Below are positions 6,898 to 18,985 of a DNA stretch of 21,560 nt, piece after piece (position 1 is the first letter of the stretch; each line of letters begins with the position of its first letter). Under the pieces are notes generated by a model. That model saw only the letters and a program-made list of their open reading frames with translations, searched no databases and was not told where the DNA came from. The DNA lies in the IMG/VR virus record IMGVR_UViG_3300037294_000166, positions 1-21,560 of that record; one strand, written 5' to 3'. Source of the stretch: a virus. Made by a program: the position numbers and the translations under genes.

Positions 6898-7884
6898 TCA
6901 CGCGCGGTTGTTCTTGTCGTATTCAGCGTAGCGCTTTACATATCGCTGGCGCAGGGCGGGGTCATCCCACACTCCGGCCTCGACCAGGGCCTGCTTCCGC
7001 TCGGGGCTGATGTAGACCTCGCGGCGGCTGGTGGCGGGGGCATGCTCGCGGCCGGAGCTAATCGCGGGGCCGCCTCGGGGGGCGCGCTCTTCACGGCCGT
7101 CGGCGGGCTCGCGGCGGGGGGCTGCGGCCTTGCCGAACCGCTCGGGCAGGCGTCGCGCAGCGCGCAGGCGCAGCTCATCCCAGTAGTCCTCGGACTGCGG
7201 GTTGTAGCCGTCACGCACCATACCCTGATCAATCGCCAACACGATGGCTGAATCCTCGTCACGGCCCTGCGGGTCGTACCAAGTGTTCTCACCCAGGAAC
7301 TCCTGTGCGTGGCGCATAGTGCGGTCGTCAATTCCAGGGGCCTTTTGCTGCGGGGCTTTCTGCGCGACGTTGTGCTTAGCGAAACCGAGATGCTGGGCTT
7401 TCTGCAGGGCTTGGTCGCGGTAGCGCATAGCCTGCGTGACGTCGGCACCGTTGCCCGCCTCAACAGCCTTGGCAATCACCCGCTCCGCCATTTCGGCCTC
7501 TTGCTGCGCCTTGGCGATTTGCGCGTCAAAGCTGCTCAGGTCGGTTTGAAACGCGCGCTGCTCCTGAGCGCCCATACGCCGCTCAAGCTCGTCGTTCCGC
7601 TTGCGCAGGAACTCCATCTCCACTTTGTCCCGTGAGATGGCTTTGTCGCGGCGCTCTTTGCGGTCCACTTTCTCCAGGCGGCGGCGCTCCCTAATGGCCT
7701 CACGCTCGTCGTCGGTGTCACCGTCTGAGTCGGGCTCACCGGCCTGGGCCTTGGGGCGGTCATCTTCCTCGTCATCGCGGTCCTCCGGCTCGGCAGCGCT
7801 GCTGAGCTTGGATTTGTCCTCGATGATGGTGATCTCTTCGGCGGCGTTCTTACGCTCGTCGTCTTCTTTCATTACGTCAGCCAT
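6898..7884 (-). CDS. Scaffolding protein
   Basis: This 328-aa protein starts at ATG 7884 with AAGGAG eight bases upstream. The N-terminal third is extremely acidic (EPEDRDDEEDDRPKAQ), then strongly charged and helical (about 80-150, with ERRRLEKVDRKERRDK and EFLRKRNDELERRMGA). A long predicted coiled coil continues through QQEAEMAERVIAKAVEAG. The C-terminal part is basic (RREVYISPERKQALVEAG, ending VKRYAEYDKNNRA). Acidic, helical proteins with a basic C-terminal segment upstream of a capsid gene are classic internal scaffolds that guide procapsid assembly and then leave. The assignment rests on composition and gene order. Confidence 0.8.
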   Translation of the reverse strand: MADVMKEDDERKNAAEEITIIEDKSKLSSAAEPEDRDDEEDDRPKAQAGEPDSDGDTDDEREAIRERRRLEKVDRKERRDKAISRDKVEMEFLRKRNDELERRMGAQEQRAFQTDLSSFDAQIAKAQQEAEMAERVIAKAVEAGNGADVTQAMRYRDQALQKAQHLGFAKHNVAQKAPQQKAPGIDDRTMRHAQEFLGENTWYDPQGRDEDSAIVLAIDQGMVRDGYNPQSEDYWDELRLRAARRLPERFGKAAAPRREPADGREERAPRGGPAISSGREHAPATSRREVYISPERKQALVEAGVWDDPALRQRYVKRYAEYDKNNRA

Positions 7885-15569: not shown

Positions 15570-16214
15570 TTACTTTGCGCCGCCCACGGACGACGACCGA
15601 CTCAGCATGTCCTGCATCTGCGCCAGCTCGGCATCGGACAGGTTCTTCAGGTCCAGCGCGGCAATCTGTACCGGACCGCCGCCGGGGCCGGTGTGCTCGG
15701 TCGTGATTTTGTCGCCGTACACTTTGGGGAGCATCTTGCTGAGCTTCCACTTCAGCGTGTCTACCTGAAGGCGCTTGCTCGCAATCACGTCTGAGGAGAG
15801 CGGCGCAATTACCTGCTTCAACCGGGGGGTCACCCCGTCAGCCTCGTACTGCGGGTTGCCGTCCTGGTCCTGCGCCTGCACGCTGATGAGGGAATGGGTC
15901 TCGGCGGCGATGCGCTCAATCCGGTCCCCCAGCAGCGTGTAGCCCCTCTCGCGCGCATGTGCGTACTCCCGGCCAAAGCCTTGGGGGTCTTTCTCCACCC
16001 AGGCCATGACGGATGACGGATGAGGCGCACCGGGGACGCGGCGGCAGGCCTCCTCAAGGGACTCACCCGCGCTGAGCACCTCGCAGATCTGACGACTCAC
16101 CAGCGCGCGGCGGTCCGCCGTAAAGGGCTGCGCCGCGGCAGCACGCTGAGTCGGGGACTTGACGGCGGAGGGGGAGGTATGTTTTGTAGCCATGATTCCT
16201 ATTTTACCCTTCAT
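15570..16214 (-). CDS. terS: Terminase small subunit
   Basis: The frame is 214 aa from ATG 16214, which overlaps the upstream stop by 4 bp. An ATG at 16193 (MATKHTSPSA) is a real alternative, with AGGA very close to it. Residues about 40-75 form a likely helix-turn-helix (ICEVLSAGESLEEACRRV, then a second helix with SSVMAWVEKDP). Then come FGREYAHARERGYTLLGDRI and, near 150-170, VDTLKWKLSKMLPKVYGDK. The last two patterns are typical of small terminase subunits of this kind. It recognises the packaging start site and recruits the large subunit. The C-terminus (PGGGPVQIAALDLKNLSDAE) is the probable contact region. Confidence 0.85.
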   Translation of the reverse strand: MKGKIGIMATKHTSPSAVKSPTQRAAAAQPFTADRRALVSRQICEVLSAGESLEEACRRVPGAPHPSSVMAWVEKDPQGFGREYAHARERGYTLLGDRIERIAAETHSLISVQAQDQDGNPQYEADGVTPRLKQVIAPLSSDVIASKRLQVDTLKWKLSKMLPKVYGDKITTEHTGPGGGPVQIAALDLKNLSDAELAQMQDMLSRSSSVGGAK

Positions 16215-16597
16215 ACTGCGTAAAGTTCGTGGGTCTTACGTCCCGAGGCTTTTTCAAGCTGAACGCGCTTGAGTTGGTTGGCGTTGATGAGCTGCTCGAT
16301 CGCTTTCTCTTTCCGTTCTTGCGAGCCCTTGACCCCGCCCCCATTCATACCCAACTGTGTGTAGAACGACTTGCCCCGGCCGGGCAGCGCCCTCACCAAC
16401 CTCAGCAGGTCCAACCCCAACTGCTCGTTGTCTTTTTTCAGCTTCACCTTGACCACCGGGTCGGGTTTGCTTTTACAGCCCGCGTGCAACCACGTCGGAC
16501 TCGCCCGGGGCGTAAACGCCCGCACAATGGTTCCTTTGTCGTTGGTCAACGTCACCACCACCACTCCGGGCTCAAAATGGGTCTCAAAAATCTTCAT
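16211..16597 (-). CDS. Small protein sharing the C-terminal domain of the primase-helicase
   Basis: This 128-aa protein starts at ATG 16597 with AGGAG eight bases upstream; a longer reading to 16723 has no better support. The N-terminal half (1-50) is a beta-type region with VVVVTLTNDKGTIVRAF. The C-terminal half (about 60-125) matches the end of the 707-aa primase-helicase encoded just upstream: LPGRGKSFYTQLG, then GGVKGSQERKE, and later QLKRVQLEKASGRKTH. The partner has GGVKGSQERKE and SVERIELEAPKGR. The region looks like a small winged-helix fold. It lies between the repeat-bearing spacer and the small terminase gene, so a DNA-binding regulator is conceivable. No established function is known to me. 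Confidence 0.75.
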   Translation of the reverse strand: MKIFETHFEPGVVVVTLTNDKGTIVRAFTPRASPTWLHAGCKSKPDPVVKVKLKKDNEQLGLDLLRLVRALPGRGKSFYTQLGMNGGGVKGSQERKEKAIEQLINANQLKRVQLEKASGRKTHELYAV

Positions 16598-16861
16598 ATC
16601 AAATACTCCTCTGTGTTGAGGTAAATTGTAGCCTATACTTACCGTTTCCGCTTGATCAGTCAACCGTGTGAAACAAGTCCACAAGAGTACACCAAACGAC
16701 CTTATACTTTGATCAGTTATCACTTCGTTCGGAAAACCACTCAGACCGACTACGGAGAGAGGCTGAACAGCCCTCTCCTCCGTCTGTCGAGTCGTTTGAG
16801 GTGGTGGTCAACCGTGTGAACGTTCGGTCGGTAATCGTGTGCCACACGGTTAACCACACGG
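16598..16861. other. Gene-free 264-bp spacer between primase-helicase and packaging genes
   Basis: No convincing gene lies here. It holds four copies of a repeated motif, a long hairpin and the 9-bp direct repeat TTGATCAGT (16652-16660 and 16709-16717). Minus-strand sequences near 16624-16630 (TACAAT) and 16635-16640 (TATAGG) resemble -10 boxes, but I found no well-spaced -35. The region could be a promoter-operator for the packaging genes or a replication origin, given the primase-helicase gene beside it. Confidence 0.5.
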
Positions 16862-16865
16862 TTAA
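16660..16865. repeat. Iteron-like repeats of TCAACCGTGTGAA in both orientations
   Basis: Plus-orientation copies are at 16660-16672 and 16808-16820, both exactly TCAACCGTGTGAA. Inverted copies (CACACGGTTAA) are at 16843-16853 and 16855-16865, the second overlapping the primase-helicase stop codon. A degenerate plus copy, TAATCGTGTG, is at 16832-16841. The clustered copies at 16808-16865 form an inverted arrangement. Such layouts are typical of binding sites for a phage replication initiator or repressor. Confidence 0.7.
16752..16783. other. Long imperfect hairpin in the spacer
   Basis: ACGGAGAGAGGCT (16752-16764) can pair with AGCCCTCTCCTCCGT (16769-16783) around a GAAC loop. This makes about 13 base pairs with two single-C bulges. 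It lies about 80 bp past the primase-helicase stop. No T-run follows on either strand, so it is not a standard intrinsic terminator. It could be a weak or factor-dependent terminator, an RNA processing site or an origin structure. Confidence 0.45.
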
Positions 16866-18985
16866 ACACCAAACCGGCCTTTCTCAATGGCTGAGGCGAC
16901 GTCCTCGTTGATGCGGAGGTAGTGGTTGGCGCGGCCTTTGGGGGCCTCAAGCTCGATGCGCTCCACTGAGCCGTCGTTGAGCAGCGAGGTCAGCGCGCGC
17001 TCTTTGCGCTCCTGTGAGCCTTTGACCCCGCCTTGAGCGACGGGCAGGCGTTCGTAGTGCGACCGGGCGCGTCCGGCGTCCCGGCGGATTAGGTCCATCA
17101 ACCGATCACAGAGCACCTGCCAGTGCTCCTGCTCTTTAGCCTCCTTACGGTCCTCCCTCAGCTGCGCCCGCTCACCCCCCGCCAGCGGACGGGCTATTGC
17201 GTGGCTGAACCACATTTCAACGGGGTAACCTAGCACATCGTTGTGCCGCTCCTTGTGGCTCACTAGGTCAAAGGTCAGCTCGGGGTAGCGGAGCGGGAAG
17301 CGCACCTTTACCGCCTTGAGCACCCGGGGTGAGTCCTCATGCTCGCCGTCCTTAAACACGGTGTACACGCCCTGCGCGTCGCCGGTCCAAGCGCCAGCCC
17401 CCCGGGGGCTCAGCGTGTCCGTCTCCACCATTCCGTTGGCCTTGGCCGCGTGGGCTACTATGATGACCGGGAAGGCGGCAAAGTGCTGCTTAGTCAACGC
17501 CATAGCGCGGCCTACCTCAGCGTTGTCGTTCTCGTTCTCTAGGTCAAACACGGCGTTGGCGGTGTCAAACACCACTAGGGGTAGGGCCTTGAAGATTGAG
17601 CCGTCTGCCTTCACGTTGTCAACTGTCCAGTCTCGGTACTCGTCGGCTACTTGAGCCACCACGGCCGGGTCAAGGCGTTGGGCCGCAATCACCCGGGTGC
17701 GCTCCTCAAAGTCTCCGGCCCGGTGCCCTGAGCAGCCCCAGGAGTGCAGCGAGTACACGACGCGTTGAACCTGCACTACCGACTCCGTTATGATTATGAC
17801 GTTGCGCCTTACGGCGGGCTTCATAATGTAGTCGGCGGGGCACAGGTGCGCAGTGGCCAGGGCTAGGGGCACCACGAGGGTGGTCTTGCCCACCCCGGGC
17901 GCGCCGGCAAGCACGTTAACCCCGGTGGACATGAAGTCGTCGTACAAGTACTCAAACACCGTCACCGTGCTCGCCCCGGAGTCCTGCGCTCGGGTCAGGC
18001 TGAGCGGGTGAGCCTCAATGCTGTCGCCGGTGTCGGGGTTCTTGACCGGGGCGTGATTCCCCGGCCAGCCGTCATCAATGGCCATGCGGAAAATGGAGCG
18101 GTACGTTATTGAGTGCGGGGTGCTCAGGTCGCGGTCCCACTTGCGGCGCTGGGCGGCGGCGTCAAACTTGTCAGAGCGGGACGCCCACTCGGTCCAGACT
18201 CGGTAGCCGTTCTCGCCGTACGGCTTGAGCACCATACCCACGTTGACCCATGTCGCGTAATCATCCGCGTCAACATGCCTCAACGCCGAGCGTAGGTCGT
18301 CAAACGTCTGCGCAGTCGCCACCGGTACGCCGCCCCGCTCCGTCAGGCTGAAGCTGACCGGCGCGCGTGCCCGGCTCGCTATTAGCGAGGGTAATGGAGA
18401 AGGCTGAGCCGGGTTGCTCTTTGACAACGGCGAGCGCCCCGCCCCCCACTTGTAATCCCCCGTGGGGCCTAGCGTCGGCGCGACGCAGATGTAGCCGTGG
18501 TGCTTCAAGTCAAGCCCCGTGCCCAGCGTAACGGGGTAGGTCATCTCCGGGTCCGCGGTAAACAGCCGGTGCTCCCCGCCGCCCTGCGTAGTCGCGGTGC
18601 AGTCCGAGTGCAACACCCCGTGCTCTGCCTCTAAGGCCTCAAGGGCCTCCCGTCCGCCGTTGCGGGGGTCAATGTCTAGGGCGAGTAGTCCGGAGTCGTA
18701 CAGGGACACTCCAATGCCTGCGTCGGGGTCCGTGGCCCACCACTCGCGGATTGTGGCCTGCTCGGTCGTGGCGTCATGGTGTCCATGCGGGGCCAGCTCG
18801 GAGTGTGGGTGCTTGCCGGCGTTGTGGCCTTTCTCGTTATTGGCCCTGCCGCAGCGGCACTGCCCGTTGGCGTCCACGGACCAGACGGGTAGCACCGCCC
18901 AGCCGCGCGCCGCATAGGCCAGCGCAAAGTCAAGCGGAGCCGGACCCCGGCGCACCACCGTGAGGTCAGTCTTCTTGATTGTCAT
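16862..18985 (-). CDS. Prim-pol primase / RepA-like helicase
   Basis: This is a 707-aa replicative primase-helicase. Residues about 15-205 are a bifunctional primase-polymerase domain: KHPHSELAPHGHHDATT, the metal-binding LALDIDP (Asp104, Asp106), then GGGEHRLF. Residues about 230-310 resemble a PriCT-2 primase C-terminal domain (DADDYATWVNVGMVLKPYG, KWDRDLS). Residues about 350-580 are a RepA/AAA_25-type ATPase with Walker A GAPGVGKTT (361-369) and Walker B LVVFD (to Asp474). A C-terminal winged-helix-like segment (about 635-690) holds GGVKGSQERKE. The ATG at 18985 has AGGAGG nine bases upstream; ATG 19003 lacks a ribosome site and is rejected. It overlaps the upstream gene by 20 bp. It likely unwinds and primes phage DNA. 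Confidence 0.88.
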   Translation of the reverse strand: MTIKKTDLTVVRRGPAPLDFALAYAARGWAVLPVWSVDANGQCRCGRANNEKGHNAGKHPHSELAPHGHHDATTEQATIREWWATDPDAGIGVSLYDSGLLALDIDPRNGGREALEALEAEHGVLHSDCTATTQGGGEHRLFTADPEMTYPVTLGTGLDLKHHGYICVAPTLGPTGDYKWGAGRSPLSKSNPAQPSPLPSLIASRARAPVSFSLTERGGVPVATAQTFDDLRSALRHVDADDYATWVNVGMVLKPYGENGYRVWTEWASRSDKFDAAAQRRKWDRDLSTPHSITYRSIFRMAIDDGWPGNHAPVKNPDTGDSIEAHPLSLTRAQDSGASTVTVFEYLYDDFMSTGVNVLAGAPGVGKTTLVVPLALATAHLCPADYIMKPAVRRNVIIITESVVQVQRVVYSLHSWGCSGHRAGDFEERTRVIAAQRLDPAVVAQVADEYRDWTVDNVKADGSIFKALPLVVFDTANAVFDLENENDNAEVGRAMALTKQHFAAFPVIIVAHAAKANGMVETDTLSPRGAGAWTGDAQGVYTVFKDGEHEDSPRVLKAVKVRFPLRYPELTFDLVSHKERHNDVLGYPVEMWFSHAIARPLAGGERAQLREDRKEAKEQEHWQVLCDRLMDLIRRDAGRARSHYERLPVAQGGVKGSQERKERALTSLLNDGSVERIELEAPKGRANHYLRINEDVASAIEKGRFGV

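Follow-up and report, generated by a model that had tools for sequence, protein, structure and literature searches.

The 21.6-kb virus record IMGVR_UViG_3300037294_000166 (positions 1 to 21,560; all 21,560 nt, hereafter the window) encodes a 128-amino acid (aa) protein whose C-terminal half, judged by sequence comparison, is a paralogue of the C-terminal domain of the same virus's primase-helicase. Both domains are predicted winged helices. The gene order on the minus strand is primase-helicase, a 264-bp spacer, the small gene, the terminase small subunit gene terS, and terL (Table 1). The spacer holds an array of repeats (iterons) around a hairpin and is probably the replication origin. We predict, with a probability of about 0.5, that the small protein is a free-standing origin-binding domain that would bind the same repeats, tune initiation, and control the promoter of its own gene and terS. 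Outside a few models, little is understood of how phages move from replicating their DNA to packaging it. Here, an apparent paralogue of an initiator tail lies between a putative origin and terS, and it comes and goes as a cassette among near-identical phages.

Sequenced phages include no near relative of the window virus: identity is <32% for the best helicase matches and 45% for the best TerL match. Scanning IMG/VR with the primase-helicase gave 76 related loci (designated by L numbers), with terS in view in 42 regions. The contigs compared are metagenomic fragments, and the small-gene family has seven members (n = 7).

Homology and Predicted Fold of the Small Protein

An earlier note on this DNA had reported that the small protein and the end of the primase-helicase share the stretch GGVKGSQERKE with similar flanks, that 27 of 32 bases agree between 16308-16339 and 17001-17032, and that a repeat-bearing spacer separates the copies. 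Both open reading frames are where that note placed them, on the same (minus) strand. The shared stretch is exact, the base count is correct, and repeats are found in the spacer. The protein similarity extends beyond the motif over ~63-73 residues and is far above chance: the local alignment scores 144, and 300 shuffles give a mean of 32 and a maximum of 49. The second copy is retrieved at E 2.9e-14 when the record is searched, and a profile-profile comparison (hhalign) gives a probability of 100 (E 3.4e-41, 73 columns). Over 62 residues compared, 28 are identical, 13 of them with the same codon and 15 with different codons. Because 15 of the 28 identical residues use different codons, the DNA-level repeat is a reflection of conserved amino acids. 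These comparisons indicate homology of the whole domain.

No Pfam or PHROG family carries the shared stretch, which speaks against a generic motif of unrelated proteins. Searches of Pfam, PHROG and PDB sequences with the winged-helix domain returned nothing above noise for either the small protein or the helicase tail. The small protein has no Pfam or PHROG match to any TerS family, and a separate Sf6-type TerS gene follows it. Among sequenced phages and plasmids we found no relatives at E up to 1, with genome contigs searched using the helicase only.

The earlier note had taken differing folds of the two segments as evidence against its reading. AlphaFold2 (AF2), with alignments built solely from the window and the related loci, predicts the same winged-helix fold for both. 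In the small protein, the winged helix spans residues 57-128 (mean pLDDT 83.5) and follows an N-terminal beta-hairpin and a linker that is modelled with less certainty. The predicted elements are H57-70, H76-81, H93-105, E109-118 and E121-127, i.e., three helices and a two-stranded wing. The helicase tail has the same order of elements with a longer first helix (mean pLDDT 85.2). When compared with PDB structures, both resemble MarR/PadR/MecI-type winged helices (Z about 9), as is usual for a fold so small and common.

An Old Family of Stand-Alone Domains

Five of the 42 terS-upstream regions (the window, L013, L075, L022 and L028) contain the winged-helix domain apart from the helicase. Targeted searches added L108 (near copy: L109) and L115, so that stand-alone homologues are present in six phages other than the window's. 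Five of the seven encode a single domain with a similar N-terminal hairpin region, marked by the pattern K/E-I/L-F ... TPRPxPxW and a C-terminal ending GR(R/K)xxxx(Y/W)PA; the helicase ending differs (GRANHYLRV). The other two, L022 (11058-11735) and L028 (11618-12169), encode two tandem winged helices, an architecture that recalls the Rep initiators of iteron plasmids.

The partial gene duplication proposed in the earlier note stands in that a real homologous domain is joined to a different N-terminal half, which recurs in other phages. It does not stand as an event specific to this phage. The window small protein shares 47% identity with its own helicase tail and as much as 56% with the tails of other phages. 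Because of this, and because codons differ at 15 of the 28 identical residues, the small protein is by sequence an old paralogue and not a fresh duplication in the window phage. The identities, the diverged silent sites and the homologues in six other phages together rule out a recent duplication there. A tree of 68 columns does not resolve the history, and a single clade of all stand-alone copies is not rejected (p-AU 0.245).

The small gene might also have no function of its own and be a by-product of domain shuffling that is neutral or decaying. We regard this as very improbable. Its sporadic presence (5/42 terS-upstream loci) and the often degenerate arrays of the phages that carry it would fit decay, but its frame has stayed open across divergences of about 30-40% identity, its position is fixed, and the N-terminal hairpin, the linker pattern and the helix-3 motif are kept in separate phages. 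A link between the small gene and altered iterons was considered and is not claimed (Fisher 0.004 over all loci, 0.08 after dereplication).

Position of the Small Gene

The small gene is directly upstream of terS in all seven phages and directly downstream of the iteron/hairpin element. The hairpin-to-terS distance is 588-777 bp in phages with the gene vs. 68-285 bp in the others. The exception is L013, in which the central hairpin was not found. In L115 the small gene lies with terS and the array, while the helicase gene is ~10 kb off on the opposite strand. On the contig of L014/L115 (58.6 kb) the terS region is on the strand opposite to the replication genes, which sets it apart from the rest of the group.

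L027 and L028 are the same through the left array and the hairpin, and the TerS behind is nearly identical. After the hairpin, L028 has a variant of the second hairpin, a TATAAT box and the gene with two winged helices; L027 instead has the usual right-hand hairpin. L003, whose helicase is 91% identical to that of the window, has no small gene. The gene is present in L028 and absent from the near-identical L027 and from L003, which makes it an accessory cassette with a constant location. L027/L028 and window/L003 are matched pairs for comparison. In L061, from about 6416, a GIY-YIG-nuclease-like reading frame lies between the array and terS, in the slot that the winged-helix gene takes elsewhere.

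The Iteron/Hairpin Element

The window spacer (16598-16865) has counterparts in about 40 loci; upstream of terS these combine an iteron array with two hairpins, of which the central one covaries. The spacer is a conserved cis element. Left iterons are followed by the central hairpin, the right iterons, the second hairpin and then the first gene. In 34/42 loci, k-mers such as CGAACGATTACC are found again in front of terS. Compensatory changes occur at 11 of 15 pairs of the central hairpin across 23 sequences, and its covariation score is 0.445 (0.160 shuffled, at most 0.176 slid). A search of Rfam matched nothing.

The iteron sequence varies by phage while much of the layout is kept. Most phages, including L003, have the canonical iteron TAATCGTTCGG, which is rare outside the terS-upstream region. 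Others have TAACCGTGTGG (window), TAATCGTGTG (L023), TAATCAAGTGG (L062), TAACGGG (L061), CTAAATAAG (L056), TTCGCCGGG (L074), TGATCAGTC (L013), and AAGCCCGG and ATGCCCGG (L041 and L042). In the window, L003, L023, L056, L061, L062, L073 and L147 the array is directly 3′ of the helicase gene, the placement next to the initiator gene that marks iteron-type origins; in other phages it is further downstream. L147 is a distant relative (34%) on a Propionivibrio metagenome-assembled genome contig, with a GGGAACATGT-type array at 7100-7400. In L074 (996-3134), a related primase has a C-terminal part that is non-homologous to the others, and its iteron is different as well. The contig of L031 and L035 (IMGVR_UViG_3300047121_000347, 101.8 kb) carries two primase-helicase copies and is either a joined assembly or has two replication modules.

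The array could instead be an operator, with the small protein solely a transcriptional regulator of the late promoter of its own gene and terS and with the helicase-tail domain borrowed for its DNA specificity. We think this rather unlikely. The small gene is the first behind the array, many relatives have TATAAT-like boxes close in front of the first gene, the nearest PDB folds are regulators of the MarR, PadR and MecI type, and the size and layout of the small protein suit an autoregulator. However, most relatives have the same array in front of terS and no small gene, the array is far larger than a usual operator and includes a structured hairpin, and in seven relatives (L003, L023, L056, L061, L062, L073 and L147) it directly follows the helicase gene.

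Which Protein Reads the Array

TerS is an unlikely reader of the array. L006 and L007 have helicases that are 99% identical and the same array, despite TerS N-terminal regions that are only 35% identical. The helicase tail fits better. At the start of helix 3, the second residue of SQERKE is Gln in 34/34 helicases with the canonical iteron, and Gln is absent there in 7/11 helicases with other iterons (Fisher 7e-6; 0.001 after dereplication), for a position picked after inspection and among related phages that are not independent. Overall divergence of the helicase tail is not significantly associated with iteron type (p 0.10); the helix-3 position alone stands out. Changes of iteron tend to accompany changes at the start of the recognition helix in the helicase tail and show no such tie to TerS. 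Along with the precedents of P4, SaPI Rep/Cch2 and pRN1 (see below), this suggests a replication origin that the helicase tail would read. The diversified arrays and their related helicase tails are a natural data set on joint change of initiator and origin specificity.

The pac site of phage P1 is repeat-flanked. The array might likewise be a pac site, with the small protein a packaging accessory that aids recognition by TerS. The array and the small gene always adjoin terS, including in phages whose helicase gene is located elsewhere. Among near-complete contigs the place of the array is scattered, which suits headful packaging over a cos end. We rejected a single cos end at the element: nearby contig starts fall 114-537 bp upstream of the hairpin with no fixed point, and in large contigs the element is at scattered positions. 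Against a pac site, the same array is found with widely different TerS types (L006/L007; L022, L073 and the canonical phages), and the small protein's predicted DNA-binding domain has its relative in the replication helicase and not in TerS. We therefore consider a pac site improbable.

A Model for the Small Protein

Our preferred interpretation is the free-standing origin-binding domain. The spacer element would serve as the replication origin, and the C-terminal winged helix of the helicase would bind its iterons. Because the small protein keeps the helix-3 motif GSQERKE, it may bind the same iterons or dimerise with the helicase tail; we put the chance of one or the other at somewhat under even. 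The small protein would then limit or modulate initiation, in the manner of P4 Cnr and short Rep forms, and would also regulate the promoter that immediately precedes its own gene and terS. As its level rises, initiation would be damped while the packaging genes come on. The small gene is the first behind the array and terS is the next, so a coupling to packaging would be plausible. The competition with the helicase and the link from replication to packaging that the earlier note proposed gain circumstantial support from the position between the iteron/hairpin element and terS, and are still speculation. A stronger version is doubtful: that the copied domain, encoded between the origin and terS, is a switch from replication to packaging, which would occupy the iterons, stop initiation and time terminase expression, with a tandem winged-helix, Rep-like form in some phages.

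Besides the post hoc choice of the helix-3 position, several observations weigh against the origin-binding interpretation. Phylogenetically independent pairs are too few to bear on the Gln-iteron trend in either direction, though none is opposite to it. The window and L062 are exceptions that keep Gln with a different iteron, and between the window and L003 the iteron changed despite a 91% identical helicase tail. The array follows terS more faithfully than it follows the helicase gene. The gap from helicase to array is up to 5 kb in many phages and in L115 is ~10 kb with opposite strands. A promoter scan gave no sigma-70 match within the window spacer. Most phages of the group do not have the small gene, and it is thus not essential to the replication scheme. 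Lastly, the P4 origin-binding domain and Cnr showed no sequence relation to profiles of the window family (hhalign probability 0.2 for P4 ORF106/Cnr, from one P4 sequence), a weak test that used single P4 sequences only. The solved P4 domain is also absent from the fold matches listed, an absence that carries no weight.

Table 1. Coordinates of the genes, domains and cis-acting features in the window.
Feature	Position	Strand	Details
Primase-helicase, 707 aa	16862..18985	-	Prim-Pol, PriCT_2, AAA_25 (Pfam E 1e-29, 5e-14, 2e-13), then predicted C-terminal winged helix
C-terminal winged-helix domain of primase-helicase	16910..17119	-	AF2 model, mean pLDDT 85.2; profile comparison
Iteron TTAACCGTGTGG	16854..16865	-	Repeat search; overlaps primase-helicase stop codon
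Iteron TTAACCGTGTGG	16842..16853	-	Repeat search
Iteron GTCAACCGTGTGAA	16807..16820	+	Repeat search
Central hairpin	16742..16792	-	Inner stem CGGAGGAGAGGGCTGTTCAGCCTCTCTCCG at 16753-16782, outer stem around it; compensatory changes
Iteron GTCAACCGTGTGAA	16659..16672	+	Repeat search; closest to small gene
Cis element between the two genes, iterons and hairpin	16598..16865		Putative replication origin and operator; kept upstream of terS in related phages
Small protein, 128 aa (P0001)	16211..16597	-	N-terminal beta-hairpin, linker, C-terminal winged helix (predicted); homologues in L013, L075, L108, L115, L022, L028
N-terminal beta-hairpin region of small protein, residues 1-38	16484..16597	-	Ends TPRASPTW; recurs in L013, L075, L108, L115
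Winged-helix domain of small protein, residues 57-128	16214..16429	-	Helix-3 motif GSQERKE; AF2 model; profile comparison
Terminase small subunit (Sf6-type)	15570..16193	-	Next gene 3′ of small protein; PF20901 E 6.8e-23; phrog_1482 E 7e-30

Comparison With Known Systems

One of the closest parallels is P4. Its alpha protein binds origin repeats via a winged helix, with the crr iterons just 3′ of the alpha gene. P4 and the window share a primase-helicase with a C-terminal winged helix (predicted in the window), iterons 3′ of the helicase gene and a separate small protein, which in P4 is Cnr and controls copy number (PMC8628076). They differ in that alpha has a TOPRIM primase and the window helicase a Prim-Pol, that cnr is upstream of alpha whereas the window small gene adjoins terS, and that the window small protein can be recognised as paralogous to the helicase tail. 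The P4 domain paper of Yeo et al. (2002; cited in PMC10516667) concerns, by its title, regulation by homo- and heterodimerisation of winged-helix proteins.

In SaPI Rep and SCCmec Cch2, C-terminal domains bind iterons directly downstream of their own genes (PMC7581432). These intergenic iterons immediately follow the helicase gene, a placement shared with the window array. These helicases belong to other families, and no stand-alone copy of the domain or terS neighbour is described for them (PMC7581432). The protein ORF904 of pRN1 combines a Prim-Pol, a helicase and a C-terminal winged helix, and its gene is followed downstream by a structured stem-loop origin (PMC4234260). Unlike the window system, it has a superfamily 3 (SF3) helicase and no iterons, and it is from an archaeal plasmid. 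It is because SaPI Rep/Cch2, pRN1 ORF904 and P4 alpha have this arrangement that we consider the window spacer a likely origin.

The IncQ plasmid RSF1010 has a RecA-like RepA helicase, a separate primase RepB′, a separate iteron binder RepC, and ssi origin hairpins, as described in the discussion of PMC4234260. This likeness is one of description; the functions are divided among three proteins, and no paralogy between the iteron binder and the helicase is described. For the small protein itself, pIGRK offers a model. RepR′, a short form of its initiator, binds the origin and a promoter, inhibits initiation and autoregulates, and can act as a negative regulator and co-repressor (PMC6854812). 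RepR′ is made from an in-frame internal start, while the window small protein is encoded by a separate paralogous gene. By analogy with P4 Cnr, the dimerisation of P4 winged-helix proteins and the short Rep form of pIGRK, a negative or modulating role is the most likely one for the small protein.

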